From Epinephelus fuscoguttatus (lineage: Eukaryota; Chordata; Actinopteri; Perciformes; Serranidae): a DNA stretch of 64,000 nucleotides. Below the pieces are notes generated by a model, which was not told the DNA's origin, made no database searches, and saw only the letters and a list, made by a program, of their open reading frames with translations. The stretch spans positions 28,624,543 to 28,688,542 of the forward strand of contig NC_064754.1 of NCBI RefSeq assembly GCF_011397635.1, in the 5' to 3' direction. Shown here in pieces: positions 21,021-63,972 of the stretch. A program made the position numbers and the translations under genes. Numbering within the stretch: the first letter of the stretch is position 1; each line of letters opens with the position of its first letter.

Positions 21021-21175
21021 TGAAACATATTTTAGTGTACTGTTTAGCTGTAAAATGAGAAAGTAAGTGACCCGCTACCATGTTTAAAGCAGTCGAACCA
21101 ACACAAAGCATGCACCCACAGGCATGAGCAAACTTTCTCATTTTACAGCTAAACAGTACACTAAAATATGTTTCA
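21021..21175. repeat. Foldback with perfect 43-bp arms
   Basis: The arms 21021-21063 and 21133-21175 are exact reverse complements (starting TGAAACATATTTTAGTG and ending the mirror). A 69-bp loop separates them. Related text recurs at 22568-22705, around 48.4 kb and around 53.7 kb, so this is part of a dispersed family. Confidence 0.9.
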
Positions 21176-22567: not shown

Positions 22568-22705
22568 GAAACATATTTCAGTGTACTGTTTAGCTGTAAA
22601 CAGTAGCCACCATGTTGGATACCGTTGACTGGGTCACCAAGCACCGCCCACCAGCCAGACCAACTTTTTCATTTTACAGCTAAACAGTACACTAAAATAT
22701 GTTTC
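22568..22705. repeat. Second copy of the foldback family
   Basis: The arms 22568-22600 and 22673-22705 are 33-bp reverse complements with one mismatch, and share sequence with the arms at 21021-21175. The repeat lies at the point where the kelch-like pseudogene loses homology. Confidence 0.85.
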
Positions 22706-23417
22706 TGAAAACATTTGAGGTCTACATTGAAATTAGATTAGACAGGACAGGAGTACAGCGATGTGTCTGTTTCGCTCTTCAGGTACATGGACGTACATGG
22801 GCGATCCAACGAAGGAAAACAACCTCCTCAAAGTGTTCAATGATGTAGCGGTAGGTCTTGCACTGCAGGTCAGAGCGGAAGCAGATGAAGGTGAACTGAA
22901 AGATGCCGATGCAGTTCTCTGGGCAGAGCCGCTCTCCCAGGAAGTTGCAGCAAGTTTGCACAATATCCAAAACGTTGAGCTGATCAGCTGCAAGCAGCAG
23001 CTCCTGCACACTGTCCTCCGTCACAGACAGACGGTCAGTGTATGCAAACTCAGTGATGAGCTGCATCATGTCAGGAGACAAGCCTTGTATGACAAAGACC
23101 TTTTGGTCTGGAGTTGCCCAGTGTTTGAAGAGAGCTCTGTGGGTCAGGTTAAAGACACAGCAGAGGATTGAAAATAAAGTGTATTCAGCTTTTTCCCCTC
23201 ATATTCACACTGGTAACAATTAAAACTTTTCAAAACAGCAGCAGGAGTGAAATATGACTGAGATAGAGGGTATTTCCCAGAGATTTAAACCACAGAACTA
23301 ATGAACCTAATGCTTTAGCACACCTCAGGCACAAACATTATAACAGTCTGGATACATTCAGGGTCTTGTTGCAACTTGGCTCAACCAATCACTTAAGTCA
23401 AAATAATGACTGAATCA

Positions 23418-40456: not shown

Positions 40457-43400
40457 ATGAGATCACGCGGTCTGTTCCTCCTGGTTTACCTACTGGGAAG
40501 CTGGTTTGGTAAGAGCTGCTTTTGTGTCTTTTATCTTATGTAGGCCTATAGTAAGTACCAGGATACAGTCAAAAGACAAATCCACCCTTAAGGGACAGTT
40601 CACCCCCAGATTAACTACTGTTAGTTCACCTAGCACCACTGAGCTAGCTAATGTTAAAGCTCAGCTGAGAAAGATACCATTTATGTTTAAATCCCATGCT
40701 GTCAGGAGCACGAGTCTTACGTCCATGAGTAGATGCATTCATCCTTACACACGGTGATATGGTTGGTGGCAGTAGTTTGGTAGAAAGAAAATAGTTCCTA
40801 TATTAAACTGCTCACAACAAGGTCTGTGGATCATCTTGAGTTACCTGGTCATGATTTCTGAAAAGACACATTGCTGTTGAGTATTTCAAATTTCTTTCTT
40901 GGCACTTTAAGCACCACAAGCTGAGGGCCATCTAGTTCCATTATATTGGAGAGAAGGCAGACATTTCTACGGCGATTATCTCCAACACTCGGCAACTCAC
41001 ACCAAAACAATCTAGATTGATAAATAGCACTACAGGTAAGAGGAAAATGTGTATTCTTTATTTGGGGATGAATTGTCCCTTTAAAGGACAGAGCCGGTAA
41101 TATTCTACATATCTAACAACAACAAATCAATGCTGCTAACAGGTGTATCCAAAACCTGATAAAGTATAATCCTCTGGGCCATGAAGCTCCATTATTGTCC
41201 AAAAACAATTAAAAACATATCAAGTAGCCACACTGTTTCACTGGATGACGTTTTCCTTCATTACATTATGATTTAGTGATCTCACACACAGCTTCCTGCT
41301 GTCTTATATACTCACCAAGCACCAAATGTGTATCAGTCCACATCTGAAAATAGTCATAAATAAATTCTTTATTTACTCATAAAGCATTATGTTTAAACCT
41401 CAGTGTCCAGCTGTATAAAGACATTATTTAGCCTCGTTAATAAAAGTATACAGTTGTGACCCTTAGATAGACAGGATATGGAAGTCAGAGAGTACTGAGA
41501 GACAGATTAATGCATTGTTGGTTTTGCTCTTTTGCCTGGATTTGGGGACAATAACAAAACTACACAATAGAGGTAGCTTCTTTCTTAAATGATTAACATT
41601 GTGTTATTCTAAAATGTTTGCATTGTCAGCAATTCCAGTAAAAAAAATCTAAATCAATAATGTCCGTCTCTCACTACTTCCCTACCCTGTCTGTAGCACT
41701 GAGCCCATTCGTTCCTACTAAACATATAAATGTTTTAAACTGGGTGGTAAATATAAAGTTTCATTTTAAAAAAAATGCTCAGTAGTTATTTCAAACAGCC
41801 AGAAACTACAGTTTTAGAACATGCCACTCAAACTTGAGTTAATTGTGCATGTTTTCAGTTGTGAATTTATACACATTTGGTGCCCTGGTGAATATTGATG
41901 GCAGCCAGTGACAGTGTGTGGGGGACTGACTCAGAGAAAGTAGACTCACAAGTCAGTCTTTAGACGCTTTGCTTATCAGAAGGCGGAGATCTCTGATTGT
42001 CTGGTGGCGAGACTACAGAGAAAGTAATAGTAAAGCACATTTATATGATTCTGGGGATGCACAATATTGATTTTTTTTTGCCAATATCCAATATGCCAAC
42101 TATATAACAACTCATCTGGCCTATTACTAATAGCGATATATATCCATAAAATATGGAAAATTATGCAACTTTCTTCCCAGAAACCTCTGTCTGAATATAC
42201 CTCTTTATCTGTATGTTTGAACCCCAGTTTATCTTTGATTTAATGTGTATTTTCATTTATTTACTTATGTAATACCCTGGTTTAAGACCGTCTATCTGTG
42301 TTCGCATTGTAGTAATATTATTTCATTGTCTGGTTTATAGGCATTTATAAAGAACGTTTCCCTTAAAATTTGAAATGCTTTAATGAAAATAGTAATTCAC
42401 GGCCTCTTATTTTCTATGGGTGTTTTGCTTTGTAATGGTTTAATAAATGTGTAAAACAGTAGAGTTCAAGTTGAATGGGTGGTAGTTTGCTTGTTGAGCT
42501 GTCAGCCAATCACAGGGGCGAAGAAGAAGAAATGGTCAGACCTGGCAACCCATGCTAGCTAGCAGATAGAAGGAAAAAGTACTAAATATTGAACAAGGAC
42601 TGACTGTAAGCACAGGAGCATACAGAGTTTGGGGCTTTTGTTCAGTGACTGTGAATGACCAAGTGTGTGTGCTGTTTTGACAAAGTGTGTGTCGGAAGAA
42701 CTGTGTGGACGGTTTAGCCCGTTAGCATCTAGCTAGCTACTTTAACGGCTCATACCTAGTGTGGATTTCAGCTTGCTAGCTAGCATTAGCTAGCTTAGCA
42801 AATGAGTTTACGTCGGTCGGCAGATCTAGAGAGCATAATGCTACATAACAAGAGGACAACACAGCACTGCGGGAGGCAACTTTGGACATGTTAGTATATT
42901 TCGCATCTCCATTTGGATTTAAAAACACACAAAAAACAGCGAAGGACCTCATTAGACAGCAACCTCTAAATTTACCTTGGTCATGACGGTGAGGTTTCCT
43001 AAGTAACGGCTCATTCCTTTGAGCTCCATAGTACTTACTACATAGGCTTTCACAGACTCTAACAGTAAAACATTTGTGGGCCCAGCTGTTTTAACGTTAT
43101 TGTTCAGTACATTTTATTCATAGCAGTCTCTTTCAGATATGTTGTTTTGTTACTTGTGCCTTATCATTTACCTGATGTTTAGTGCATGTTCACATTGTCA
43201 ATTTTAAAAAAATCGGTTTGTCATATCGGCAGAAATAAGAACGTTGGCCGATTCCGATATTTGATTTTAAGACTTATATTGATGACGATGTTATTGTGCA
43301 CCCCTATGTATTTCAGTATTTCAAGTCATCTTTCACCCATTTGTGATATTATCAGGCCATAAACTGATTGTTATCTGTGACTTTAAGCCTCATAAGCCCA

Positions 43401-46400
43401 GCTGCCACCAAGCAGTACATTACGGTTCAGTTCATTTTGGTAGCCTACGTTTTTTTCCGTTTCCATGGTGAAAAGTTGTGGATGGTAGCAATGGAACCCT
43501 TTCGTACCTCCTGATTGGGTACCTAGCACACAGATCTGGTATTAAGGAGGTGGAGCTGTGAACACTGCAGTCTGTTGATTGGTCAATAGCAGACTGTCAC
43601 TCTTGCTGGTTTTGAAACTCATGTAACCACTGTAGAGTTTCGTAGATTGTAACTATAAAATGAAAGAATGTTTTGCTGCCGTTTGCAGCAACTGGAGTCG
43701 AAGAAAAAATAACTTAATTCAGTGGGTCGACTGCCGGCGACTTTTAAGGTGGAACGTTAACTTGTTATGTTACTCAGTGCATGAGTTGACAACGTGAATC
43801 AATCAACACTCCTTGAATTTCACTGCGACATCTGCTATTAACATGCGTCTTGGGTGATCCGATCATAAATGTACAGCTCTGTCTGTCTGTTCACACCTGG
43901 CATTAGAATGCATCTCCACATTTGTCTATGGAAATTGGATTTCACTTCCTGACTCTATGGAAATACACATGTAGCTACATCATTTACATTTGCAAGGACC
44001 AAATGTGTTTGTTGTTAAGTTGTTCATAACCGGCAGGTTTGGTTCAGAGGCCATTATCAACCCTTTAAATGGTTGTTTGCATATAGACATTTGCGTATTC
44101 AGCTGAAGCTGTTGCAGTTTTAGGTTTCACTGTAACACCATTGGTTCAGGAACAAACACTATATAGGTAGGTATAGAAAAAGATATGGTATGTCAGTTAA
44201 AATGAGCATCTCTGGTTACAATGAGTCAGCCTCGACTTTTGGTGTCACAGGGGACATGAACCGCGCTCTCATGAAAATCCCATGTTTGTTTGTACTCAGC
44301 AGCACAGATAAAAATGGAATTTAACAGCTGAAAAATCTTTTGTGATTAATTTTGATGTCAGTGTCTCTGGATTAAAAAAACTCAGGCTTTCAATTTTGAT
44401 GCAATGCAGCCTTGTATTTGTTTTCTATATCACTACTCATGTAACTCAAATCTGTATTTAAAGTAGGCTAGCAATGGTTGAAGCTTAAAAACAATTATTA
44501 TCTCATGATAAATAATAAAATGTCTCATGATAAAAATGTCCTTGATGTGTCCAAAATCTAGCATAAGTCTTCCAAATTCTAGGGTCATCTCTAACAATGA
44601 ACTTTGTCTTCTTCCAACAGGGACATCAAATGCACAAAGGTAAGCTCAGGATGTTGAAATGTAAAAAGAGCAAAATGTTCTTTTCCATTTGTAAAGATTT
44701 CACTGTGCTCTAGTTGTAATGAACTATGTTGCGTCATCTCTTGTCTCTAAACTCTTGTCTCGTTTCTTCAGTCATGGAAACAACAGTGCAACCTGCACTT
44801 CAAGAGAAACATGTGGTCAGGTGAGTGAAGCTGTCACATGCTGTAATTGCATTTTTTCTAATCGTACACAAAAGAAAGAAAATTTAACCCAAAACCCAAA
44901 ACACAATCCCAAGTTCTGCATGTTTGTTTGTTTGTTTTTCAATTATGCTGATGAATTTGTATTTGAGATCACAATCAAACCCCCTTCAAAGCTGCAGGTA
45001 CAAACGTCATGATCTGATTTGATCTGTTATCTATTTATCTTTGAAGACAATTTTCTCAAATTGTTTTCGAGGCAACAATTGATAAGACAGTTTTGAAGAA
45101 GTTAAAAACATGTCAAGGGGGAATGAGTGTGAATATGGTTTGAAATATTGAAGTGGAAACATAACTAGCTTCCAAAAATGCTGACTCATTCCTGCACCAC
45201 TCTATAATGGAAAGATCTTCACCACAACAATAAAACATAGGCAGCAATTAGTAAAAATATATATATATATTTTTAAAAATGCATCTCATAAACTAGAATC
45301 AGACAACTTTGTAGCTTTTCCACTTGGCGTTTCCAAGTGGCAATATTGTTGCAGCTGTTGTCGCAAAGCAATTACCACAGTATCCACAGTTACTTTGGTT
45401 GTTCCACTGTCCACCATGTCCACTACTGAGGATAGTAAATGTAGGGAACTTGTATTGATACTGTTTGGCATCTGGGGGGATAGCTACCAATAGCTACTTG
45501 GAGAAAACAAAAGACTATCCTCTTCCTGTTTTGGTTATGCAGTAGTTGACACATTTCCCTGTGCCATAAATCAGGCTTTCATTTTCCCATGAGACTGTAC
45601 CCATTTGGAGACAAAATTGTGTTGTGAAAGTGAGGCTCAGTGGGAAACAATCTAAATAGTGTCATTACTTTATAGCCATTACATTGTGCAATTAACATTT
45701 ACCATAATTAAAGTTACAGTAAAAAAGTGTCTATTTCCACATTAAATCAGTTCCTCTTATAGTGTCCACAGAGCAGCTAGAGGTCATCATTTCACAGCAG
45801 AATATTTGAAGTTTAATTTATTGTTTTCTCCCCATTGTTCTCTTTACAGAAATAGTCGGCAGCAACTTTGAAATTGTCAGTCGTAGTTGAGGGAAATGCT
45901 GCTAAGTGTTTTCCTAACAGTGGTATAGACCGAATCACAGTGTTTGTTTACATGAAGTTTTGGGTAGAAAACCATGCAACATACATAAAATGAAAGGGCG
46001 CTGACTGCTGACAGCTGCTCAAGTGGTTAGTTTTTAGCCATCTAAAAAAAAGGGCCATCTATATATATATATATATATATATATCAGTTTAAGTCAGGGG
46101 TAGGCAACCTGTGGCTCTGGAGCCATATGCAGCTCTGTAGCCCTTTTCCAGTGGCTCTCAGTGGCTTTGACAAAAAATATAATATGAAAATGAATACCAG
46201 TTATTTATTTTTTCGCTTAAATTGTTATTGTTGTAGGCCTAAAGAAATTCTATAGAGGAGCCATTTTGTGGCAAAACATTTTTAAATGCTCTTTTAGAGC
46301 CATTTTTAATGTCCGTCTGCTCCACATTTTTAAAATTATTTTTGGTCAAAATTACTCTTCTGAAGGTTGCTGACCCCTGGTTTAAGTGTATGTTATTTAA

Positions 46401-49400
46401 AGAATATTTTTGCTGTTTCACCTTGCCATCAGACAGCCTTTCTGATGGGGAACTGAAGCCATTATCTCAAAGTCACCAAACTCCATTTACAAAAATAGTA
46501 ATTGTACTTGTTAGTACTCTATTGGTTAGTGTGTAAAGTGTAGCGGCGAAAATATCCCAAAGATAGCCCACACTAAAACTGATATTTATTTTTTTATTTT
46601 TCTTAGGTGACTAAAATACGTTTCATTGCAGCCCCAGTTCACAGCAGTATGTATCTAAGCTTTTGTGCCGGTAAATTTCAGCAAAGCAACACAGTACATA
46701 AAATTAGCACAGCAAAAACATCAGGTAGGTCAGATCACTGTGTTTAACTATATATCTTTAAACGTTACAGTCACAGCTGAAAATTACAGTAGAAGTAAAC
46801 AAGTTTGCAAGTTTCGCTTATCTCTGCAATTCAAATCTATTGCCTGACATCTATGTGGAAGTGACTGTTGTTCGTAACGCTGCATCATAGGGATTTGGTC
46901 TGTTAGACTGAATGATATGATGTGTGAAAAAACTTGAATAATCATGTTGAGAACATGTAAAATCCATTCAGAGAGGACCAGGAATGATATTTGGCCCCAG
47001 GACATATACCTTAAAGTTCCCATGACACCTTTTAAGTCACATTGTGCCTGTGACTTCACTGTCACTGTCTGAGAATTCTTTAAAACTGCCCAAATCACAT
47101 GCCAACAGGATCATTATCAGTTTTCACATTGTTTACAACCATCCAATTGAGCTCCTGAACGAAGTTTATCAAAACAATCTGGCATCGACTGCATGACAGA
47201 ACTACAAAACGGTAGACTCACCTGTGGTAAATACCATTACTAAGCAGTACAACGTGGCAATCAGAGGTGTAGTGCTAACGTTTCAAAATGTGTCTTCAGG
47301 CCAACATCCTGTACAGAAGGCTCTGTGAACCGGCAGTGCAGAGGAACAAAGAAACTTAACACTGAAATTGTATAAAGGTGTTTTTCACAGCAGATACTTG
47401 TACTTGTAAAAGCAGAAAAACCACAGGTGTATTTAATACCACTGATGATACCTCAGTTCCATGTAAGTCTAAATCATGCCAATGCCAACTACCGGAATGC
47501 AATGTGCCACACCAGACAAATAAAAGCTCCTGCTGGTGGGTGGCGGTCCCATTGCGGGGTGGTAACAAACGATCTCGAATTATAGTAAAATGGTAAGCTA
47601 AATAAGGACGTAGAAGCACTGCTGGGTCTTCGTAGTAGTCACATTCAGATGCTCTTTGGATTCTTCAGGTGTACTGTGTTTATTCCATCTTGTGAAGGGC
47701 CCATTACAAGATATTACAAAAACAATCCAAGGCACACTGCAGGGTTTGTGAAACAATTAAAATGCCTTTAATTTACATGGCAATATAGATTAAAAAGACC
47801 AACGCATTGCAACTCACAGGTCAGCTGAGTGAGAGGATGACTCTCTAATATGTGGTCCTTTTGTAGTGTAGTGTATAGTGTTGTTTATTTGCCTTTTGTT
47901 TGAGTGTCTTGTTTGAGTGTCCTTTGATTGAGTGTTTTGTTTGAGTGCCTGTTTCTGTGCGTATTCTTTTGTAAAGCGTCTTTGAGTATCTAGAAAAGCG
48001 CTATATAAAACCAATTTATTATTATTATCATTATTATTACTCTCCTCCAGTTTGCAAGCCTATTGGTCAAGAACAAAGAAGTGATATACCAATATTGGAG
48101 ACATTGACCATGATGAAGATGTGTCAGTCAGTGTCAGTGTTGGGTCAGTCACAACGTGTTGGTCTTTTTAATCTATATTGCCATGTAAAATAAAGGTATG
48201 TTAATTTTTGCACAAACCCTCCAGTGTGCCTTAGATTGTTCATGCAGTGAGCCCGTCACAAGATGGAATAAACATGTTTCTGAATAATAGTTGAGGCGAG
48301 AACTCGACAACACAGTAACAGAAGCACTGCGTAGTTTTACTGTTTGGTCTAAGTTTTTTCAGCCTGCGTTTTACAACACAGAAAACAGTACGTTTTAATT
48401 ATTGTACTACAGCAAAACAGTGCACTAAACTATGTTTCTGAAGACAATTCAGGTGAGAAAGAGGCAACACAGTTACAAAATCTTGGTTTATATTTAATCA
48501 GCACTCCCTAGCTTTAACGTTTGATCTGGGTTGGTCAGCGTTTGAGAGGGAGAGAGAGGGGCAGCTCTCTCTCTCAAATTAACTATACTATTTGTGTCCT
48601 TGGTGACGGGCAGTGCGAAAATACAGTGGTAGAATCTTGTTCGAGCAATAGCCCCTGAGCCAACCTAAATCCCTCAGATGACATGATTTTGAGCTTGGAG
48701 ATGAGCAGGGAGATCTGGGCACTGATAAGGTGGAGGGAAGTTTACCACAGTTCATTTACACATACTAGCCACACTGTTTTGATGAAAAGTTAGTTGAAAA
48801 TTGGCAAATTATCTCTTTAAAGCTTTAATAGTCCTAATAATGTCATTCCAGCAATTGTTGCAATGCAATGCAGCAAGTATCACCCAACTGTAGCCAAAAA
48901 AGCTTTGACAAACCCACTGTACACTTTGGGCCAATAAAATCAGCTTATATTAACTCCGTGTTTGGTGAGCTCTGATTTTTTTTTTTTTTTTTTTTGAAAG
49001 AAGCTTTCTAGTTGCCTCTACATTAGCTTTTCCTGATTGCTGAAGTTTTCCCTCTGTCCTTCATTCTCAGCAGCCAGATCCGACCTCTCACTTTCTCCAC
49101 TGTGTGGGACTGCCATTGAATGACACGGGGAGAGGCCACATGCGGAGGCTGAAAGAAATGCTTGAAGCGACGATGGATGTGTACACCTCCGTGGTAAGGC
49201 TAAAAGTTAACCACTGGATAAGAACTTTGCCCAGTAGACACACAAAGGAAGGAATGCTGTCACAAATACCAACCCGACCAGTTGATTTCGTAATGCTTAC
49301 TCAGATTTTCCAGACAATGGCAGATTAGCACCACGGTGACTTTTGTTAAGACTATCCCTTTTACTGAATGATTCGTGTCATGTGTGTTTGCATACTTGTA

Positions 49401-52400
49401 TTATTAGCAATGGCAGATCCTCCAGATCTCCTCTGTGTGGCGACAAGCTGATTCTAAGCATTTCAAATACAGTTACCCACATAACATCAATACATTTCAA
49501 CAGACTTTTTATACCTCTTTTATACCTCTTAATTATTTTTTTGTTTGTTTGTTTTTTTTACACCCCTCCACCACCTCAACCACAGAGGTCCAGCATGACA
49601 GGAGGGCCATTTCTTAGCATGCAGGGGGAGCTGGCATTTAACCCCGAAGCAGACCCCCTCCAGAATGAAGCCCTGGTCCAGATGTGGATGGAGGTCAGGA
49701 TAAACCCGCTGCTGAAATCTGTTACCAAACACTTCCTGACCTGCCTCAGCACCAAGACATTCAGCTGCCGCACCTACCAGACGATGTATGTCTGAATCTC
49801 AGTCTACACGTTTCTGTTACCATTGTCACAAAATCCTATCTCACCTTCTTATCTCTTCTTGCAGGGTGAGGGAGCTCAGCAACCATTATTCTGAGATGGA
49901 TCCCGTCAGACAAAAGTGGATCTACACATTCTTCATGTTCCCCTTTCTGTCAGGAGACAGAGTAGCTGGTAAAGCTTTTATTTGTTTGATTCAACTTTAC
50001 AATTAACTAGAATTGGTTTACAGTTGATAGCGCATGTAAATTTTTTTTAATAGCTACAGCAACACTTAGTATAAACAACAACTTTATTATGAGGCCCATG
50101 CATCACAATAAAGGCCACAAGCAGAGGTGTGGGCTTGGGTCACATGACATATGAATTATATGACTAAACTCAACTTGACAAAATCATAAAAGACTTGCAG
50201 CTTGACTTCAACTTTAAAACCAGTGACTTGTGACTTGAACTTGAGCCTTTTGACTTGAAAAAACTTGATACCTTCTCCCGAGCCCAATCCCTAAAAATTA
50301 ACTTATTCAAAACATTTGTGTGCATTCAATTAATTTCCCTACTTTTTCTGAATCAACTAACATCGACGCTAGTCGACACTTGAGTCCCCAGTCACTTTGT
50401 TTGAACCAGGAGAGCACCATAAGGAGCTAACGTTACGTTACTGAGTGCCAGTTAGAAAAAAATTATACCAAAGATAATTTTGTTCATGTACAAAAACTAT
50501 GTGGTGGTCAACTGAAACTAAATATATGCAAAACATGGGGATTGAAAATTACAGATGGAGATGCAACAACTCCCATCAAACTTGTTTTAACAAATAAGTC
50601 CAATATATTATTACTGGTTCAAATGCCATTACATTGAATGAAAAGCACCTTAGTTGGGACTCGATTGCAAAGACTTACTTTTGACTTGCAAAACAACGAT
50701 TTGCCATGGTAGATTAAAGTTCCCAGCAGCCTGTATGCAGCACAATATATGCAATATCTTTAACAGACACAGATTTTCATATTTGTCAATAGGCCTATAC
50801 AAGATTGCTGCTCTTGTCGAATTTGTGTACATACATTATGTGTTCACTCAGTGCGTGTAATCTCTGTATAGGTTGTGTGAACCCACAGGAGAGCAGTGAA
50901 GAGTGGTTGATGAGGAATTTTGGTGCCTTCAGGGTCATGGCCCGAATGAATGACTTTTCAGCACTCAACGTGGTCTTCAGTGGAGTGAGTTTCCATTGTT
51001 TTTTCTCCAAGATTTTTTTGATTTACAATAGTAGTCAACCCCACAGAGACAGAGTTTTTATGTAGCTCATGTGACACAGTGCAAGACTAAGTTTTCCACA
51101 CTCTTACCTCTATGTCTTAACCTCCTCCTCTCTCCTCCATTGTTTTTTCTCCCCCGTAGTTGGAGGTTCTTCACCTACTGACTCCAGAGCAGAAGGCCGA
51201 GTTGCTGCTATTGCCAGAGGTTGCAGGTTTAGACAACAGCACCCTAAGCCTGGTCTTTCACAGTTTGTTGACAGGGGGCCCTGGCCATCCCCCCACCATC
51301 AGCCCTGGAGGGGACTACAACTGGACAAGCCCTGGAGGGGGCTATAACTGGACGACCCCAGGAGGGGGCTACAACTTGACGACCCCTGGAAGGGGGCACC
51401 ACTTGACAACCCCTGGAGGGGGGCACCACTTGACGACCCCTGGTGGCGGCTACAACTTGACACCCCCTGGATACACGTCAACCTACCCTCCACATCCCAC
51501 ATTTGACCCATACGCACCACCGTCCCCACACAACAACTTAGGACAGGTACTGTAACATAGCATGGATCAAGTGTTTTAAAATTTAAATAACTGTGAATAA
51601 TTTGAAATTATTTATTTTATTCAAATCTTTGAGATTTTTTCAAACTTCATGGAGACATACAAAGCTTCCAAATATCATAGTCCAGGTGATATGTGCCAAA
51701 TTTGAGGTGAAATGTTCACTTTTCATTAAAGCATGAAACTTGGTACACTCTTACAGTTCGGGGACCTGAACATTTTCAGAAATGGAGCGATTGCAAAAAC
51801 GCCCCGTGGCAGAGATTTTACTTTCTGTCATAACAGAATTATTTGCACCATATCTACCAAAAATGACAACACAGACAAAGTGATGTCTACCCTTGTGTAC
51901 TGATGGTTAGGTATTACAATGATACCATTTACAAAATCATAAACCATTCAGGTGAAAAGTTAAGGGTAAATTTAGTGACATGAGAAGGAAATCATAGTAT
52001 CTGTGAACCAATTCTAGACTTGGCCTTCAAGGCTCTGTCAAGTGCAGTGTACCAAGGAGGACACTGTTGAGAAAAAGCAGTTGAGGAGCCATCAAATATG
52101 CCATCTCACACAGACGGGTTGGATGGACTCAAGTTCAGGAGATATAATGCAGAACACATAATTTGGTTATGGCAAAAGGTAAAATAGCTGCTACAAGGCA
52201 TATTTGCGATTGCTCCAATTCTGAAAGTGTTTAGGGCCCCAAAGTGTACAAGTGTACCAAGTTTCATGCTTTTATGAAAAAGTGAACATTATATTCACAT
52301 ATCACCTGGACTTTAAGGCATTTTTGGGATTGGATTTACATTGCCAGGTGGACACAAACATGCTGATGTTGCTGCGTATCTGCTGGATGTGTAAACAGGC

Positions 52401-52679
52401 AACTGTTTGCTAACAAATTCATCATATCAACTATACATGATGATAATTTGTCCGCGTTGTGTTCCCCAATGTGATCAAAAAATTGAATGAAGGCAGGTTT
52501 AAAGAAATATATAAGTAATAATAGTATTGATAATAGTTTAATAAGTAAAGATATAGATAGTAATTTGAATTATTTATATGTTTTTTTCAAACTTGCAGGT
52601 TGCGCATGGTTTTATGACGGCTTTCAGACCCCTTGGGAGATTGGTTCATGATTTTGTATCCTTCACACAAGAGGTACTA

Positions 52680-52744
<65 letters not shown>

Positions 52745-55700
52745 AACATAAATCAACATGCAGATGAATGTACACAGTACACCTGCAAAGTGAAATGACT
52801 CCTACCCTGCTTTGTTTCTTCAGAGGGACGTGTCAGAAATAAGAAGCACAACTCTCACTCAGTTCCTGCTCAACTGGACTCTGGCTGAACTGGCAGACAT
52901 GTATCGGCCACAAGAGCCACCTACAGTTCCACAGGAACCACAGTTTGACGTGACCAATGTGGATGATTGGTTCCAGCATGTTGTGATGCCAGTGTTGCAG
53001 AGGCTCCTGCCAGATGGCGAGTCTGTGCTGCCCCCAAACATCACAATGGCCTTCCACCATGTGTTGTAAGTCAAACTAAAATTTTGGATTAGTATTCTGC
53101 ATCCTTGAGTATTCATTTATTTTTTCACGTGTGTCAGTAAAGATAGAACTACATGGAAAACAAATGTATTCCATGTCTGAAATGCAGATTTAAAGGTGTT
53201 TCATAAAACTAGGCTGTCTATGCAGTAGAAAGATGCAAATACCTTTAAAAATTGGTGCTACATGAAGATAAACAGATAAAAAGAGGCTGTGGCATTTGCG
53301 TTTGTTTAAGAGGGAGAAAATCTACAACTACCAGAATGCACTGTGCCGCACTGGGCCAACAATTGCTCACTGGTTATTTCCACAGGAAGCAATGGGCGGT
53401 TCATTAATCTGATCTGAAGTTCCACGCTAAAATGACAGTGTTGTTCGAAAAAACAGAGCTTTCTATTTCCACATGAATTAACAAATGGTTAAATTAATCT
53501 CACATTCACTCCACAGTACACTCTGCTGCTCTGAGTGTGATGCTCTGAATAACCAAACGGTACAACATGACAACACTGAATTTACAAACAGTCCAGTTTG
53601 TGTCAGAGTGCACTCGGGCACTTGGGCTGAGTATTTTCAAATGCATTTAAAATGGCGGCTGACTGTGAACGAACGATCTGGAATTACAGTTAAAGGGTCA
53701 GCTAAAATATGTTTATGAAATAATTTCAGGCAGAAAAGAGGCAACACAGTAGCAGAATCTTGGTTCATATTTGATAAGCACTTCTTAGTTTTATCGTTTG
53801 ATCAGAGTTTGGCCAGTGTGTGTGTGATGGAGAGAGGCGGGTTTCTCTCTCAATCCACTTCAATACTCTAATGAAAAATTTGTAGTTTAAGTAATAGCCC
53901 TAGAGCCAGTGGAAATCTTGAACTGGATTTGAGCTGAGAGATGAGCAGGGTGATCTGGGTGCTGGTAAGATGGTGGGAGGTTTACCACAGTTCATTTACA
54001 CATACTACCCAAACTGTTGTGATACAAAGCTGGTTGAATATTGGAAAAGTATCTCTTTAAAGCTCCTATAATCTTAATAATCCTGTTCAAGTAATTATTG
54101 CAATGCAAGGCAGCAATTATCACCCAACTGTAGCTCTATCTTTCAGCCTCTTCTAGCACATTGTTTCAATTTTAGTCCTGCACCAGGGGGCAAAGCTCTT
54201 GGCTACACTCCCAGCCAAACACCAAACTGCACAAAGACAAAATCAGCGGCCAGCTGGTGAAGAGATGGGAGCATTTAGCAGCCAAAGACTGGTGGAGACC
54301 AAAATAGAGTTAAAAGGAAGTGAATATGTTGGATTTAGATTCAGGCGTCCATAAACATCTGTAAAGTAAGTTAAGTAAAATTTATTTCTATAGCGCTTTT
54401 CTCAGACAAAAGGTCGCATAGTGCTTCACTAGGGCATTATACAACAAGAAAGATAGGGTGACTAAGAGAGCCACTTTGGTAAAAGTGCACAACAAGTAAA
54501 CTATTTGCACACAGAAAAAAAATACACAACAACAACACATACAAAAAATAAATGGATAAATAATAAAATAAAATACAGTTCTGGTGAATACAAGTCACCA
54601 GGTGCATCCTTAGAAACCACAGAGTCAGCAGACTATAAAGGAACAGGCAAAGCATTCCAATATTTAGGTGCTACGGCCGCAAAGGTGCGATCACCACGAG
54701 TTTTAAGGCGATTGCAAGGGAGAGACAACAAATTTAGAGTATTAGATTGAAGAGAGCGAGCTGAAGAGTATGGCTAAAGCAGTTCACCAAATTAGCAAAT
54801 TAATGCTAATGTTGCTTCATGTCTTTTAGATGTGTAAAAAGACAAAATTGCTTGCTAACGTGCTTGCCGTAGTAACTTCATAAGAGACAGTGTGTCGATG
54901 TTGTGGATTAACTTGTTGTGAAGCTCCTCTGTCCACTAGTGGCTAAAAATCAACACCAGTTGACTCAATCCACCCTGATGTCAGTTGATAGGTGTCTGTG
55001 TTGTAAGATAATTTCTTCTGATGACTTGAATGTTTTGCCTTGTTTCTGTGCAGCTATCTGGACCATGGTATGGACAACGATGAAACCTCTATAATCCAGG
55101 ACGTCTGTAGCATCAGTCTTGACAGACGACCTTGTGGCGTGAGGCTTTAATTTCTTTTTTATGATTAATCAAGTTTGAATTTTCTAGAATTTGTATTTTA
55201 TCTAAAAGTGACATTTCCTTGTTCTTAAAAGTCTGCTTCAAAAGTCGTCTTAAAGAGCTTCTTGTCTACATTTTTTTTTTTCTTATTCTACCAGCTGACA
55301 GATGCAGTGGAAAATATGGCGAATGTTTTGCACTGTGCTGCTCAGAGCAACCTGGAAATGTCTGAGGAAACTATCATGAGATTGATTGGAGAGCTGACAG
55401 AACGTCTGCAGTTACTGATGAAAGAGTTGTCCACAGCTGTGAGTATATCAGCCTTAAAACTCACATTGTTTTCACTTCTATTAAAATGATATACAAGTCT
55501 TAGGTCATGATAGGAGCCTGTTTCAACTTGATGTTTACAGAGATTACTGATGTAAACAAACTTATAGAGCACCAGCAAAAATTAACACATGTTTATGGGC
55601 TGTGCCTGTATTACTGTAAATGAAGTGTGTAACAATTTGGAAATAATAGCAAATTTCAATCTTGTCTTTTCTGACTGTCTCTTTGGTGGTCGGTTTTTCT

Positions 55701-58700
55701 TTAGTTTTATTTATGTCACTGACTGTGCCTTTAAAATACTAACCTTTAGAATAACCTGCCAAATAAGCCTTTCAAAGCCAAATGTTACAAACCACCACAC
55801 ACAATGATTTTAGCATTCATAGATAATTATAGACTCACACAACCTCCACTGTAAAACTAATGTTTTATGAATTCCAGCTCCTACCTGGGAGACTCTCAGC
55901 TGTTACACATCTTTATTGTAGGGAAGACCGGGGTTGGTTGGCACACTTTTCACTCTCTGCTGTACTTCATTGGCATTATGTATGTTAGAATAGTCTAACC
56001 AGCAGCAAATGAAAGGATTATCTCAGCTATAGATTAATATGTTTTAATCTAAAAAAATGTTTTCTAGAATTAAGTGATTAGTGATTATGGTCATGTTGTG
56101 CATTTGTGCTAACCGGCCCCATCTTGTGGTTGGTTGACACATTGTTAAAAAGCTGTAGTTACAAAAAAATTAAGCAACCAATTGAAACAGTTTGAACACT
56201 TAATTCAACCATGTACCAAAAAACATGAACATTATCTGCCCATTTTTCAAACCAAACAACATTTTGTAATAAATTCATCAGTATGATTGTCCAATTACTT
56301 TTTCCATTTACCATGCAAAATAATAAAACAGTAAAGACATCGTCTCTCAAAATACAGCTACAGTTATAACGGTTAATGTTACAACCAGTTGATACCGACC
56401 AACCTAAAAATCAGTGTGCCAAGCAACCCCACTCACATTTAAGCCAACTTTGTGATGAAATCTTAAAAGCCAGCGACATCACTCATCACAGACTTTCAAA
56501 TCTATATCAAATTTAGCTGATTGCTACGTCCATTAAGTACAAGTAACACATTTCCAATATCTCTGTTTTACCCAGTTTACCCAGCCAACCAGCCCCAGTC
56601 TCCCCTAAACTTCTTAATGTATGTTTGTTGTAAAAATATAAATTAAAATTGGTGCTCTCTTTTCCTCCTGTAGAACTTCAGAGAGTTGATGTCCGACTTT
56701 CAGCAGATCTTTGGCGAGGCGGACTCTCCTTCTCTGACCCAGGAACACCTGGACGACCCGGAGTTCATTAGGCTCTGGTTTCACATCAAGCTGATGCCCC
56801 TCCTGTCCAACCCACCCACAGACATCCTGTCCTGCCTCAGCACCAAGAACTTCTCCTGCCCAGTTTTCCAAACCATGTGAGTTCTCAGGTGTGAGGAGAT
56901 GTTTTCTTCCTCCACACTGTATGGTGTATTACATTTAATTTCTGTCCCTTCTTTTTCCATATGTGCAGTGTGGCAGGACTCAGCAATTACACAAATATTC
57001 ATCATCCTAATAACATCTATGAGTCGTTCATCTATCCCTTCCTGCTGCATCACAACACCTCTGGTAAGTAGTGACTATCAGCCCTTCTCGTTTAAAGTAG
57101 TTGCCAGACATGGAAACATTTTTATCCTGCAACTAAATAAAAATCTTAGCTTGACATTTTGGCAAAAAATAGAAGGACAAAAGTCTTCACTTAATGCAAA
57201 AAAAAAAACCCCACTACAAATATGATAGAGGAGTCCTGTTTCTGCAGCGGTGGAGGAAGTACTCAAATCATTTATTAAGTAAAAGCAGTGGTACTAATAA
57301 TAGTAAACACTCTGTTAGAAATATGTCTTGCATTGAAAATGTTACATAAGTAAAATAAGTATTATCAGCTAAAATTACTTGAATCAAAAGCAAAAGCATT
57401 AAATGCTTGGAAATGGCTCCTTTGAATGAATCATTAATAATACTAGATTGTCAGTGATGTGCACTTTAATGTTTTAGTTGGTTGAGGTGAAGCCAATTTT
57501 AACTATTTTAATCAGTGTTTTCTGTACCTGTTAAAAACTGATCATATGTTTTGCATGTAAAGTTTTTATTTATAATGTTGTTACTTTAGCTGTCAAATAA
57601 AAATAGTGAAGTAAAAGTTTAAAGAAGCATGGCATTGAAATACAATGCAGAATGCCTCAGTGTTTCAGTATTTTACACATTATATTATTAATATTAAAAT
57701 ATCATCACTCATGATTCTCATTTATGTTGATGCAGAATTTAAAGGTTGAGTTGGTCAATTTGGAGTAAATTTTAGCTACCATGGGTTAGTTATTCTATAG
57801 CACTGGATCATAATTTATAAGATGACCACATGTTTTGCGTGTAAAATCTTTTGCAAAGTAAGTTGTGACCATAAGTATACAATGAATCATAATGTAGCAG
57901 AGTAAAAAGTTTATTTTTCCCCTTGAAATGCAGTAAAGTATAAAGTAATATCCAAAGGAAATACTCAAGCAAAGTACCTCACATTTGCACTCAAGTACAG
58001 TGCTTGAGTAAATGTACTTTCCACCAATTAATGAGTTTTGCTTTCTTTTTACCATGGATAAAAATAATGTCAAGACAAAGTGTTAATACGGGGAGTTACA
58101 TGATAAATATACGTTCATTGTTGCATGTATATTTCAGACCCACGGTGTATCTTCTCAGCCAATGATAGTGCAGAATGGCTGACAAAAAACTTTGGTGTCT
58201 TCTCGAGAGTTCCCTCCATCACTGACTTCTACAGGCTCAACCCAGACTTTTCTGGAGTAAGTCTGGACAACCTGACAAGCTAAAAAGCGTCATCTAAAAC
58301 TCACTTTCTGAAGATTTTACATTATTGTTTTTAATTTCTTCTCGTCTAATGTTTCCTGTCCAGCTGGAAGTTCTTCACCTCTTGTCTCCAAGGCAAATAG
58401 CAGAGATGCTGCTGTTGCCTCTTCCTACTCCACCTGAGAAAGACGTTGTTATCAACCAAATATTTGACTTCCTATTGGAGTCTCCTAGAGAGAGGGGACT
58501 TCTGGAAGTCCTGGGAGAACTGGCCTATCTCGCCCATGGGGTAAAAGCTTTGTAATGATTCGCAACTTTAACGCTTTTGTAAATAAAAGTAACTGTCTTG
58601 GAGGATTAAATGTAAAATATTCAATTTGCCAGGTCACCATAAACTGCAGTGTCTACAACCAGATGTGAGTATTTTTAGATGCTTTTAACAATTTACACCT

Positions 58701-61700
58701 AAGTTGGTAATTACTTTCATTTTTATGTGTCAAACGCAGGTCAAATTGCTGCATTGCATGATGCTAATTGTTGGAAATGACTCATTACTTGAGAGTTAGA
58801 TAAGTATGAAAGTGTAATGCCTTTACTTTGAGACAAAGAAATCTCATTTTTCTGAATTAACAGGACAATAATCTCATATATTCAGAAAAACAACAATTAA
58901 CAAGATCATGGTCTGTTTTTTCTATAAAAACTTATCTCGGGGTGCCCTGGTAGCTCACTGGGTAGAGTACATACCATTAAGGCTGAGTCCTTACCGCAGC
59001 AGCTCGGGTTTAAGTCTGGCTTTGGCCCTTCGCTCTCTTTCCCCTTTTAAATCTTTGTCTATCACAATCTCAGTGGCGCAAAAAAATGGCAAAAAAAGAT
59101 ACCTAAAACAAAAACCCTTATCTAATAATTATGAGATTATATTCTTGTTAATTTCGAAAAACAGAATTGACTGCTTTATGCTTCCAGAGATAAGATAGGA
59201 TAAAATATGACCTTATCCTGAGGGAAATTGTTTTGTTTATATATATTTTTTTCATTTGTGTGTCAGTTCTGAAAGATTCTACAGAGCCCTACCAAATCTG
59301 CCATTAGACCTGGAACCAGTCATCTGGCATATTTTTAATGAACTGACATACTTTACACCAGAAGGTCAGTCTCTTTCTCACACATACAGGATGACCATAA
59401 ACACAAAGTCACAAATACCTCCTGTATACCTTCTGCCCAGTTGCCAAGATAAGGCCTTGTTTTTAATTTTTAGATTGTATTTTATGTTTTACAAGTGTCA
59501 TCAGGTGCACACTATAACCGACTGCCTATTTTTATATTTTAATTCGGACAGAGTGTGTGCCGAAGAACTTAACGGTAAGATTTCTTTAAATTGAACTAAT
59601 TTATTTGTACTTATATTGCAAATTAATCTATTTTAACTGTATTTTGTTTAAATTTTTCTGATGGTTTATTTTATCTGTCATTCACAGTGCCCAGTAACCC
59701 AGTACAATGGTAAGAGCTCTTTGACGTTGTAAAGTCTCATTTTAAGTGCTTTTAGAGCTAAAATCATTTGAAATGTTTGTCCTCTTCTGTTTGACAGCTA
59801 CCAACATCTGCAGAGGAGTTAACAGGTGACCCATTTGTTCTGATTTGTATCCAGAATTACAAATAACAGTTTGATTAGTCTCTCTGCTGACGTGTATTTG
59901 CCTTTTTACATGTATTCACAGCTCTGACCTGCACTCCATCTTGAACTCATCAATGGAAGTCCCCTGCAGCTTTCCCTTGGAGACATATGCATGTGCACAG
60001 GTGACTAATTTAAATGAGTCAAAGTCAGATAAGAAACACAAGGGTTTATTTCTTGTTGTAGCCCTTAGATGACACACAAGCTAAATTACTATATGACAAC
60101 TTTCTGTCTCACACATACAGCCGGAGAACTTCACAGCCAATCAGCTGGTGTCTCTTCTGCAGTGCCATCTGCCTGGAGGCAGTAGGCACTCCAAAAGGTT
60201 GTGGAAGATGCTCCTGACAAAGCTATCCTTTGTCTTAGACCCAGCTCTGGACATTTTAGCAAACATGGTCAGTGACCCTTTTCAACTCTCTAATGAACAT
60301 CCTTAAAGCTATAGTGCGTAACTTCTGTTGCCTCCCAGCGGAAAATGCGTTATTACAGCTAATAAGCCGGTGGCACTTCCATGTACACAGAGTAACACTC
60401 GCCAGTCGCCACACACCGTACACAGAGTAACACTTGCCTTGCCTGTCTCGGCCGCTTCTCCGCCATGTTGCTTTTTCTTTCTACCTGCGCTCTACCTCTT
60501 GCTATGACACTCTCCGCTCTTCCTCCCCCTCCCTTCTTGTTGTGAGGAAGCATTTCCTGTGCGCCAGCGCGGGAATGTCGCCGGTCGACACGCAAACTAA
60601 AAATGATATATACTATAAAATACCACGAGATGTTAGAGGAGCCGATCGGCTTAATCAGCATTGTGTCATCTCCTGTAGTAGTGGCTTGGGTGAAAAGGAC
60701 TTTTACGGGCCTGTAGAAGTTACGCACTACAGCTTTAACTTCTTTTCAAGATTGTCAATGGCAGTAACTAATGTACCGGTCCAGAAAGCACGACGCAGTT
60801 TAAAGGATATTAAGTAAGGGTAATTAATAGAATGTATTCCTAACACTGCTGCCTACCATGCGTCTTAGTTTTAACTGGATTTAGGAGCATGAAATCACTT
60901 GACATCCAGTCTTTCACAGAGAACAAGAAGGCCTCTAATGATTTGGGAATGATCATCTGCCTTTACAGGCACATACAGCTGAATGTCATCAGCATAGTAG
61001 TGAAATATTAATCCAATGACTTGTGTAATTTGGTAAAATATAAACATGAAGTTAGAAAAGCAGAGGACCAAGAACAGAGCCCTGAGGTACTCTTCATTTC
61101 ACATCAGAAAATATTGATCTTGTATTATTAAGGAAACATGGGTATACAGTGATCATCTATAATGATATGATCAATTGATCTTTCCCACAGTCCTTTGTTA
61201 TTCCATCTGGGTCTGTGGTTTTGGATGTGATTGGAGAGATCAGAGTGTCAGTATGGACTGAGGAGCAGTTGATGAATAGCAGTGTCATAAGAGAGTGGTT
61301 CTCCGGCCGTCTGAGTGGTCTCCTTCCGTCTGCATCACCAGTTTTTCTGCGCTGTCTGAGCAGCAGGAACCTCAGCTGTTATGCATACCAGCAAATGTAA
61401 GTGTTTTGAACTTGCATTATTGATCCTCTTACGACAATCGTGTTATTGTTACGTGTTTCACACTTCATGTTTATATCTGCTTTGCTCCTTTTGGCTTAAG
61501 ATGTAAATAGTCATCGTAGAGCCTACGAGTTAGGTTATGGCTTCTCCTCTGATGTCACTGTCAGAGCAAAGTGTATTTATTTTTGCCTCATTGACGATAA
61601 GGAACAGAGTAGTGTTTCTGTTTTTCATCCACCACAATTTTATTGTCTTTTAGTGTCTGATGAGAGTTACAGCCTCACAATTTTACACCAATTAATCAAT

Positions 61701-63972
61701 GGAATATTTCTCATTCTGTCCTTGATTTTATTACCAGACTTCGGGAATTTTTCCCCCTCTTTGATTATGAGGCCAACTATCTTCAAAAGTATGAGGTCCT
61801 CAGAAATTTCGTCCTCCGTTTCCTGTCACAGCCACACTCAGGTACTCTCTGCACAATCTGAATATCTTTAAAACATTAATATGAAAAAATATGTTGGCAT
61901 TTACTGATATCTCTTTATGCTCCTGACTCGGTCCAGGTCCAGGCTGTGTGTCTTTCTCCAACAACAGCGCAGAGTGGCTCATGAAGAATCTGGGTCCATT
62001 TTCACAGTTTCTGTCCCTCCAAGAAGTGCTTCAGCTCAACCCCAACTTTAACCCTGTAAGATTCAGTTACTGCTGACATCAGTTATGTAATTTTTTCTCA
62101 GCAGAGGTAAACATTTTTTTTTGTTCCCTTCCCACCTTGCAGCTAGAGGTCCTACAACTTCTGACTCCAGAGCAGACTGCAGAGCTGCTCGTATTGAATT
62201 ATCCTAACTCTCCAGAGAAAGACGTCATAATAGATATGATCTTTGATCACCTGACTAACTCTCCTGATGAGATGAACCTTCAGTACTTCCTACTTGCCCT
62301 CTGGGCAATCCACAACCAGGTACAAAGATGAGCTCTCTTTATTCAGATTGACACTTTGCACTGCTTGTTGAAGGTAATAATCTTTGTTTGTTGTATGTTG
62401 TATCTGAAGGGAAACCTTTCCTGCTCATCATACAAAACACTGTGAGTTCATATATATATATTTATGTTTTTTTTAAAGTGATTATTCATAAATAATGCTA
62501 TGAAACATAAGATAATGATGTTAATCCCACATGCTGCTGTTCTAGGATTACCAGAATGGATTTGATTATGCCTACAGTTTCTCTTCAAACAGCATCAATC
62601 ATTGCATACACTAAGATGGAGTTATCCAAATACATACCACCAGGTGAGAAGCACAGTCCATAGAATATTGTTAACATCTAGAATATAACAATAATATAAG
62701 ACTTTTACCTTGAGTAGCTTTAAATTGGAAACCATCACTGAGATTTGATTTTGTGGCTGCACCATTTAATCAAATGGACATATTCTCATCTTAGGCATTC
62801 AAGATGGTAATGATTTAAAGGAGCAGTGTGTAAGATTTAGGGGGATTTTGTGGCTGCTAGCAGTGAGGATTGCTGATTACAACCAGCTGGAAAATGCCGG
62901 AACTTAAATTAGGAGACGAATTATCAACAGGAGTCTCCTCCTTTTCAAAACAGACAATGTGATTAAAACATTTAATAAAGCAGTTTCACGTTACAAATCA
63001 GTGTTTCTCCTACCCTGTTCTGCACATCACAAACAAGCAGCTTGTCCAGTACCTGCTGATGTGTGCTCGCTTATATTCTCTAATAACTTAAGAGGAGCAA
63101 TATTATTCGCAGAGGTCTCTTCCTCATCAAAACGTTGGACCCGGTGATTTTAACTGGTAAAAACACTGAATAAGGCAGTTTCACGTTAAAAATGAGTGCC
63201 TTTCCGTACTCTCGTGATAGAGGAGCTGATAGTGGCCAATGTAAAAATGCATATGGCTGTATCTAAATGGCTCATTCTAAGGTAATGAAAACACGATTTT
63301 TATTTTGAGGTGATTATACGCTAAAGAAAACTTTTTATCATATTATATTCCACCTCTGCCAATATATTCCCCTTAGTCCTACACACTGTACTTTTAAATA
63401 CCCTTTAATATCTCGTGGCTATATAGTCATAGTAACAGTTAAAAATCTATCTATACAGTTCAGCCATTAAAGTCTTCATCAGTGCCCTTAAAGCCTGATG
63501 AGAGCCTTATTAGCTGAAACATCTAGGCATATTTTTAACTGCTGTTTCTACTTAACAACCATGAGATATTTAAGCCTTTTTAAATAATTACCCTCTTGAG
63601 TGCCTCAGATTTCTGCAAAAAAAAAAAGTTTATTAATAAAAACACCAGTGGAAAAACATGTCTGCTGAGAATAAAATGAAGTTAACAGCTGATTCCTGTG
63701 GATTCCTCACATATAGAGAGGAGCAAGACTTAAATGGAGAGTATGGTATTGTAGCAGTGACTGAGTGATAAATAAAGGAGACAGCAATTCCTTAAAGCAG
63801 CTATAATCTGTATTTTTTGTATCCAAGTTATTTTTATCTTACCGGAACATGTTGTTGTTATAATCAGGATGTAAACTTATTGTTGAAATGAGCATTTTAA
63901 TCATTTCTAAGCTATACCATGAACTCATATGCATTTAATTTTGTTTTAGGTTGCATCATATACAGCGGAGAG
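40457..63972 (+). CDS. Large secreted modular repeat protein, 3' end beyond window (30 exons traced)
   Basis: Not recognised with confidence. Exons join in phase to 1125 codons: 40457-40508, 44621-44639, 44772-44820, 49071-49193, 49586-49785, 49865-49968, 50872-50984, 51160-51546, 52599-52673, 52824-53065, 55054-55138, 55295-55438, 56674-56876, 56969-57063, 58138-58256, 58364-58540, 58633-58664, 59267-59364, 59552-59574, 59688-59709, 59798-59825, 59922-60000, 60121-60267, 61191-61396, 61738-61841, 61937-62055, 62143-62319, 62410-62441, 62546-62643, 63950-63972. The start encodes a signal peptide (MRSRGLFLLVYLLGSWFG). Repeated modules carry CLSTKTFSC-type cysteine pairs, an AEWL-KN-G-F block and LEVLHLLTPEQKAELLLLP-type helices, with many N-x-S/T sites. 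Exon lengths recur between modules. No transmembrane segment is seen in the visible part. A distant likeness to mesothelin/stereocilin-type helical repeat proteins is possible but unproven. An AG acceptor just before the start exon implies an upstream untranslated exon. Confidence 0.85.
40588..41084. mobile_element. TTAA-flanked MITE
   Basis: The left end TTAAGGGACAGTTCACCCCC and the inverted right end TTAAAGGGACAATTCATCCC are close inverted repeats. TTAA lies at both borders (40588-40591 and 41081-41084). The interior is non-coding. Confidence 0.75.
42053..43305. mobile_element. Non-autonomous hAT-like element
   Basis: The left end GGGGATGCACAATATTGAT and the inverted right end AGGGGTGCACAATAACATC are imperfect inverted repeats. 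Subterminal ATATCGGC / GCCAATATCC motifs are typical of such elements. No clean 8-bp target duplication was found, and no transposase is present. Confidence 0.55.
46095..46379. mobile_element. hAT MITE with perfect 8-bp TSD
   Basis: The left end CAGGGGTAGGCAACCT and the inverted right end CAGGGGTCAGCAACCT match closely. Identical GTTTAAGT copies flank it (46087-46094 and 46380-46387). It is 285 bp long with no coding capacity. Confidence 0.92.
47678..48273. mobile_element. Long foldback element with a LINE/SINE-type tail in its loop
   Basis: The arms 47678-47818 and 48147-48273 are imperfect reverse complements of about 130 bp; shared text includes CATGGCAATATAGATTAAAA. The loop contains GTAAAGCGTCTTTGAGTATC, then GCGCTATATAAAACCAATTT and an ATT-repeat tail, the usual 3' end of a fish retroposon. 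A retroposon therefore sits between the arms. Confidence 0.75.
49586..51546 (+). repeat. Protein module A (exons 5-8)
   Basis: Exons of 200, 104, 113 and 387 nt encode CLSTKTFSCRTYQTM, then SEEWLMRNFGAFRVM, then LEVLHLLTPEQKAELLLLP. These correspond in order to modules B and C. The fourth exon has the same start as the 177-nt exons of the other modules but is extended by a coding minisatellite. Confidence 0.8.
51301..51462 (+). repeat. Coding 27-bp minisatellite, six units
   Basis: Six in-frame 27-bp units encode a nine-residue repeat of the form T-P-G-G-G-Y-N-L-T, with variants S-P-G-G-D-Y-N-W-T and T-P-G-R-G-H-H-L-T, at about residues 268-321. Four units keep N-W-T or N-L-T, potential N-glycosylation sites. 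The unit length is a multiple of three, so copy-number change would keep frame. Confidence 0.95.
52679..52741. repeat. (CT)n(CA)n microsatellite
   Basis: The compound repeat begins 6 nt after the end of the 52599-52673 exon, directly following the GTACTAT donor. Confidence 0.95.
53180..54120. repeat. Dispersed repeat family copy in intron 10
   Basis: Text such as GAGGCAACACAGTAGCAGAATC, followed by CTTGGTTCATATTTGATAAG and ending near TATCTCTTTAAAGC, matches copies near 48.4-48.8 kb and 21.2 kb in the same order. No coding content. Confidence 0.6.
55921..56605. mobile_element. Second TA-flanked TIR element (same family as 15770-18078)
   Basis: The left end GGGAAGACCGGGGTTGGTTG and the inverted right end GGGGAGACTGGGGCTGGTTG match, with TA on both flanks. 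It is 685 bp long, shorter than the copy at 15770-18078. It lies in the intron before exon 56674-56876 of the modular gene. Confidence 0.75.
56674..59574 (+). repeat. Protein module B (exons 13-19)
   Basis: Exon lengths 203, 95, 119, 177, 32, 98 and 23 nt encode the CLSTKNFSC pair, SAEWLTKNFGVFSRV, LEVLHLLSPRQIAEMLLLP, a short NCSVYN exon and a helical exon. Module C repeats 119-177-32-98-23 exactly. Confidence 0.88.
58939..59100 (+). mobile_element. tRNA-derived SINE
   Basis: The head shows a tRNA-like A box (TAGCTCACTGGGTAGAG) and B box (GGGTTTAAGTC), followed by CTGGCTTTGGCCC and an A-rich tail with CAAAAAAATGGC. It is a teleost tRNA-related SINE on the plus strand, in the intron between exons 58633-58664 and 59267-59364. 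Confidence 0.8.
60303..60738. mobile_element. TTAA-flanked MITE
   Basis: The left end TTAAAGCTATAGTGCGTAAC and the inverted right end TTAAAGCTGTAGTGCGTAAC differ at one position. TTAA lies at both borders. Chance frames on both strands cross it and are not genes. It sits in the intron after exon 60121-60267. Confidence 0.88.
61191..63972 (+). repeat. Protein module C (exons 24-30)
   Basis: Exon lengths 206, 104, 119, 177, 32, 98 and 23 nt encode CLSSRNLSCYAYQQ, SAEWLMKNLGPFSQF, LEVLQLLTPEQTAELLVL, an NLSCSSY exon and ITRMDLIMPTVSLQTAS. It follows module B closely. The next module exons lie beyond the window. Confidence 0.88.
62814..63396. mobile_element. TTAA-type TIR element
   Basis: The left end TTTAAAGGAGCAGTGTGTAAG and the inverted right end TTTAAAAGTACAGTGTGTAGG are inverted repeats bounded by TTTAAA. 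The interior contains two similar blocks, shared with the degenerate copy at 36590-37260. Its termini resemble those at 30691-31766. It lies in the last visible intron of the modular gene. Confidence 0.75.

Follow-up and report, generated by a model that had tools for sequence, protein, structure and literature searches.

In the human mesothelin precursor, furin cleavage separates an N-terminal factor from a domain that is GPI-anchored, and mesothelin binds MUC16; mesothelin, stereocilin and otoancorin have together been proposed to be superhelical binders of glycoproteins (excerpts of PMC2628672). In solved structures the mesothelin domain combines ARM with HEAT repeats and contains two disulfides (excerpt of PMC10035497). 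Mesothelin is targeted in tumours, but what it normally does is unclear (excerpts of PMC2628672 and PMC10035497). Elsewhere, putative relatives of the gene described here are mentioned in passing: in work on gill health, an uncharacterized salmon gene mapped to human MSLNL differed between groups by a mean log2 change of -3.1 (excerpt of PMC7316992), salmon mslna is one of the genes that were higher in skin when the lice on it were adults than when they were at the chalimus stage (excerpt of PMC12339338) and a proteomics survey of catshark semen lists a mesothelin-like protein (excerpt of PMC11083954). Among the matches listed from the open-access literature, no paper described a modular or tandemly amplified fish mesothelin. 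Within that scope, what seems to be new is the modular N-terminal build of the gene described here together with a fresh array at a sister locus. If fish mesothelins bear six or more added modules, and if a sister locus has recently been amplifying them, then a comparison of module number, tissue and ligand between fishes would make the role of mesothelin testable.

The window is the whole 64,000-nucleotide stretch that was analysed (C3:28624543-28688542), and the genome searched along with it spans 1.047 Gb in 26 contigs. The earlier note, made from the window's letters, had described 30 exons joining in phase with a signal peptide, encoding a secreted protein that it left unassigned. The joining held throughout, as the 30 exons at 40457..63972 on the plus strand, to which all exon coordinates below refer, give one continuous frame free of internal stops and every intron is GT-AG. 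The N-terminus (MRSRGLFLLVYLLGSWFGTSNA) resembles a signal peptide, as judged by eye from its hydrophobic character and from a hydropathy of 1.92 across residues 5-17. Placed by the in-frame chain are exon 1, which holds the start codon and the signal-peptide-like N-terminus (40457..40508), exon 2 (44621..44639), exon 3 (44772..44820) and exon 4 (49071..49193), and likewise exon 9 (52599..52673), exon 10 (52824..53065), exon 11 (55054..55138) and exon 12 (55295..55438). Splice sites were picked with the reading frame in mind, so on its own the frame says little for the shortest exons. The short exons (for example 2, 17, 19-21, 28 and 30-32) were based on frame, splice sites and mostly also on a length match between repeated units, and the repeat pattern of exon lengths supports the chain independently of the frame.

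The window cuts the gene at exon 30 (63950..63972, 23 nt), which is supported by the extended chain and a length match, and exons 31-65 lie within the next 21 kb. Past the window end the frame continues through 35 further exons before it meets a stop (extended window coordinate 84881). The full chain has 65 exons over about 44 kb, of which exons 1-30 fall within the window, and encodes 2,763 residues with a hydrophobic tail at its end. The 49 kb that follow the window contain more module matches.

The extended chain changed the standing of the protein as unassigned, for the same exons terminate in a Mesothelin domain. Pfam Mesothelin (PF06060) matched residues about 2005-2586 at E 1.9e-63 (215.1 bits against a cut-off of 25.8), and human mesothelin in the PDB (8fsl, 7ued) matched residues 2319-2586 at E 1.6e-28. 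Because the C-terminus of the chain matches both, the gene was assigned to the mesothelin family, to which it almost certainly belongs. The earlier note had named a mesothelin- or stereocilin-type match as the result that would assign the protein; such a match was found for the chain beyond the window and not for the modules, which had no Pfam or PDB match.

Along residues 2319-2586 the alignment with human mesothelin includes the Cys of 'LCSL' and a later 'TC', and the two proteins further share basic sites before the domain and a hydrophobic C-terminal tail after it. The basic sites are RTKR (2249-2252) and RKKSKR (2284-2289), shortly N-terminal of the human-mesothelin-aligned stretch, so that furin-type sites precede the mesothelin domain as a pattern in the sequence only. 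Unlike human mesothelin, the window gene places about 2,000 residues with six module cores before the Mesothelin match and carries a long Thr/Ser stalk, with 53 Thr and 29 Ser among the 153 residues of 2588-2740. The human precursor cannot hold a six-core region because it is only 69 kDa (excerpt of PMC2628672). A C-terminal hydrophobic tail abuts the stop (hydropathy 2.28 over 16 residues) and is GPI-like by eye and hydropathy, which qualifies the description of the protein as secreted. No clear internal membrane span was seen, the top 19-residue hydropathy being 1.74. The protein contains 54 Cys and 55 N-glycosylation sequons, 45 of which fall within residues 23-1780. The resulting domain order is a signal-peptide-like start, modules, a Stereocilin-like stretch, basic sites, the mesothelin part, the stalk and the hydrophobic tail.

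The Stereocilin-like stretch raises the reading that the gene corresponds to stereocilin or otoancorin and serves inner-ear gel attachment, rather than being a mesothelin of general epithelium. Pfam Stereocilin (PF21058) did match above its cut-off in two stretches (E 5.3e-8, 32.8 bits against 26.6), and GPI anchoring is common to the superfamily to which mesothelin, stereocilin and otoancorin all belong (excerpt of PMC2628672). However, the shared stretch, residues 1852-1922, is the best of the two and spans just profile positions 328-396 of 397, the Stereocilin model had no match in either of two pieces spanning residues 1 to about 1797, and the best and longest match of the gene is to the Mesothelin model, which scores far above it. 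The putative salmon relatives, mslna and the MSLNL-mapped gene, are also among the genes that change in skin and gill (excerpts of PMC12339338 and PMC7316992). We regard a stereocilin or otoancorin identity as quite improbable and retain the mesothelin assignment.

Ahead of the mesothelin part, the chain is made of repeated exon blocks. The earlier note had described two consecutive modules sharing the exon lengths 119-177-32-98-23 nt, and this series was found at exons 15-19 and a second time at exons 26-30. The alignment of the two units also showed the motifs given in the note for the two modules. The duplication stands but its five-exon extent does not, as the unit lengths reveal a block of 11 exons. 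Unit 2 consists of exons 13-23, with lengths of 203-95-119-177-32-98-23-22-28-79-147 nt (341 codons), and unit 3 of exons 24-34, with lengths of 206-104-119-177-32-98-23-22-28-85-147 nt (347 codons). Eight of the 11 exon lengths are equal and the other three differ by 3, 9 and 6 nt, all multiples of 3. As a control, exon order was shuffled 20,000 times and each order was scored by the largest number of identical lengths that any run of 11 exons showed at a single offset. The gene's own order scored 9, the top shuffle scored 5 and none reached 8 or more. At the protein level units 2 and 3 are 39% identical over 348 columns.

Unit 2 opens with exon 13 (56674..56876), which is also the first exon of core 2 and is supported by the unit and core alignments, and continues with the core-aligned exons 14 (56969..57063), 15 (119 nt, 58138..58256) and 16 (177 nt, 58364..58540), the last of these closing core 2 and the latter two also matching in length. 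Length matches further support exons 17 (32 nt, 58633..58664), 18 (98 nt, 59267..59364), 19 (23 nt, 59552..59574), 20 (22 nt, 59688..59709) and 21 (28 nt, 59798..59825), while exon 22 (79 nt, 59922..60000) was placed by chain and length comparison and exon 23 (147 nt, 60121..60267), the last of the unit, by unit alignment and length match. Unit 3 and core 3 both begin with exon 24 (61191..61396; unit and core alignments), and are followed in the window by the core-aligned exons 25 (61738..61841), 26 (119 nt, 61937..62055) and 27 (177 nt, 62143..62319), with exon 27 ending core 3 and exons 26 and 27 matching in length, and then by the length-matched exons 28 (32 nt, 62410..62441) and 29 (98 nt, 62546..62643).

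Within these blocks a four-exon core was found six times, at exons 5-8, 13-16, 24-27, 35-38, 39-42 and 43-46. The intron phases are 2, 1 and 0, in that order, in all six cores. Core intron 1 occupies one shared alignment column in 6/6 cores; the column of intron 2 is common to cores 2-4 and that of intron 3 to cores 1-4, the others being shifted by 2-11 columns. A profile built from cores 2-4 recovered core 1 (E 4.8e-45), core 5 (1.6e-5) and core 6 (1.5e-14), and its top score against 200 composition-shuffled proteins was 2.4 bits. Seven columns are invariant across the six cores: a W, two Cys, an F, a Q and two L. Core 1 is the altered earlier module that had been noticed from the window, as both the core alignment and the profile match place it at exons 5-8. 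Its exons are exon 5 (49586..49785; chain, core alignment and core profile), exon 6 (49865..49968) and exon 7 (50872..50984), both by chain and core alignment, and exon 8 (51160..51546; chain and repeat scan), which is lengthened by a coding minisatellite on the plus strand at 51303..51471 (27 bp x 6.3 copies, GGGYNLTTP-type repeats). Several of the repeat copies include an N-glycosylation sequon, as read from the translation.

The proposal that a Cys-containing module had been duplicated serially as exon blocks is thus well supported by the lengths, shuffles, alignments and profile, as is the construction of the front part of the gene through the copying of exon blocks. The module copies of the window gene are old and diverged, unlike those of the sister locus on contig C14. 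A tree of ten cores (six from the window gene and four from C14) had none of its seven inner branches well supported, so the tree gives no age order for the units of the window gene relative to the split from C14.

The modules themselves matched nothing in Pfam, and a profile of the six cores, a weak test, found no PDB match at E <= 10, so that the modules appear to constitute a protein family without a match in either database. When only the part of the chain inside the window was searched, one Pfam match, to a transposase dimerisation model (E 0.1), and three PDB matches (E 0.19-1.9) came up, all of which were judged to be chance. An AlphaFold model for the exon family 24/13/5 had a low mean pLDDT of 58.2 with over half of the residues helical, and one for the family 27/16 had a mean pLDDT of 77.6 with three helices, two single-exon models that lend weak support to the module having been called helical. 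Foldseek with the 59-residue exon model, a weak test, gave none at E <= 0.001 among 12 matches listed. By homology the C-terminal domain should fold as an ARM/HEAT superhelix like that of human mesothelin, and the modules may either extend this solenoid or form separate domains.

Comparison of the modules with the mesothelin region of the same protein, again a weak test, gave an hhalign probability of 0.2. This lack of detectable similarity would suit two adjoining genes, one encoding the modules as a secreted protein (exon 1 up to about exon 46) and the other encoding the mesothelin (from about exon 47 to exon 65). Against such a division, exons 46 and 47 join in frame and free of stops, and the C14 locus keeps modules followed by a mesothelin part in the same order and on the same strand. 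A pair of genes is therefore very improbable, and exons 1-65 very probably form a single gene. Taken together, membership of the mesothelin family, a single gene and a history of exon-block duplication make up a reading that we consider probable.

The second mesothelin locus lies on C14 of the same genome, at about 34138429-34222125. Searching the entire genome for one module gave at least 38 matches at E <= 10, on C3 and C14 only, and Pfam Mesothelin gave at least six, of which C3 has two and C14 has four, with three exceeding the cut-off; both searches were read exon by exon, making these counts lower bounds. When the Mesothelin model was run against 14 control genomes one matched, Caulobacter vibrioides, under the cut-off. 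On C14 the retained tblastn matches are all on the plus strand and show modules ahead of a tandem array, within it and beyond it, with the mesothelin part coming last. The paralogue thus shares with the window gene the order of modules and then mesothelin part, and unlike it carries a 3.75-3.78 kb unit in 13 full near-identical copies. This array (C14:34143187-34195375) consists of 13 full module-bearing units spaced 3.75-3.78 kb apart, with partial units at its ends, and each unit has two clear cores and one weak one, as read from the list of core-profile matches. Measured against the reference unit, identity is 98.2-98.8% for the 12 other full units and 93.3% for the 3' partial, with a mean of 0.49% substitutions between units over 78 pairs. 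This suggests that the C14 module block was amplified very recently.

Five exons were checked for frame in the array as assembled, and no full unit among the 13 keeps the frame in all of them. Only 1/14 copies has an exon-34-like exon that is 147 nt long, in frame and open, and the majority consensus of that exon meets a stop. Expected-frame lengths were found in 9/14 copies for core A exon 3, 8/14 for core A exon 4 and 6/13 for core B exon 4, and core A exon 1 kept the frame in 8/14 copies (seven at full length and one shorter by 3). These lesions would fit an array that is a decaying pseudogene stretch, leaving the window gene as the sole working modular mesothelin. However, the majority consensus is open in the other four checked exons, and the type of change between units is better explained by an unpolished long-read consensus. 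Compared with their majority, the units show 129 substituted cells along with 206 indel events, of which 144 involve a single base. Indels per homopolymer copy climb from 0.0007 for runs of length 1 to 0.106 for those of length 5; length 6 gave 0.026 from three runs, and one 9-base run alone accounted for 16 events. Such a rise with homopolymer length, alongside the low substitution rate, fits long-read consensus error in a repeat beyond the reach of short-read polishing. Decay is accordingly rather unlikely in our estimate, and we lean towards an array that is coding and carries assembly errors.

Past the array, identity between C3 and C14 at codon positions 1, 2 and 3 was 0.606, 0.706 and 0.414 over 908 codons in 17 stretches, a count that took in only the plus-strand stretches past the array. 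The divergence at third positions is the pattern of protein-coding selection. One of the 17 matched stretches in this single-copy part contains a stop; it has 144 columns against 98 query residues and probably reads through an intron.

Between the two basic sites of the window gene, exon 58 (extended coordinates 77357-77486, past the window) encodes a 37-residue stretch, 2253-2289, with a net charge of +17. This ties the protein maximum for windows of 37 residues, which is reached by six windows starting at 2248-2253. The C14 counterpart (C14:34215759-34215879) has 34 residues with a net charge of +13 between STKR and RVRR, and the top 18-residue helical moment of the protein begins at 2247 and overlaps the polycationic stretch. 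From these features one could propose that the main product of the precursor is a furin-released polycationic host-defence peptide, 2253-2289, with the modules and mesothelin domain as its carriers. The helical moment of the peptide's own first 18 residues is matched or exceeded in 85 of 2,745 windows, however, and a basic linker ahead of a furin site may just be a cleavage region. We consider a peptide-centred precursor extremely improbable; the stretch itself could be a released peptide or a mere cleavage linker.

The product of the window gene is most likely a GPI-anchored surface protein of epithelia in which the modules extend a mesothelin-type binding domain. The predicted GPI anchor would place it on the outer face of epithelial cells, furin would cut before the mesothelin domain as it does for human mesothelin, and the mesothelin solenoid would bind glycoproteins. 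The modules, bearing predicted N-glycosylation, would add length or extra binding surface. Their number has grown as whole exon blocks were duplicated. We give an adhesion or mucus-binding role about an even chance. A further joint proposal is speculative and we give it little credence: that fish mesothelins are mucin-sized surface proteins, that module count sets their reach or avidity, that this count is still changing, with the C14 gene fresh from a 13-fold tandem amplification so that its copy number may vary between individuals, and that a furin-excisable polycationic peptide in the precursors lets one locus provide a defence peptide as well as the epithelial coat.

Several neighbouring features were also recorded. 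On the minus strand of the window are the exons of a GGA-type gene with VHS and GAT domains (6014-10913), for which the best PDB match was GGA3, and a kelch-like gene with BTB and kelch exons (18703-23198). Just downstream of the mesothelin gene is a LITAF-like zinc ribbon exon on the minus strand (extended coordinates 85994-86095). In a synteny comparison, none of six queries (two GGA, two kelch, one BTB and one LITAF piece) matched at E <= 0.01 in 130 kb of C14. Further repeated DNA lies just past the sister gene, at C14:34222000-34239000, to which spacings near 1,525 and 1,725 bp in the whole-stretch scan were attributed, and a transposase-like ORF near C14:34230817 is presumably Tc1-like. 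Within the window, an ORF at 29432-30676 encodes a transposase that belongs to the DDE_Tnp_1_7 family (E 5.3e-65) and that we take to be piggyBac-type.
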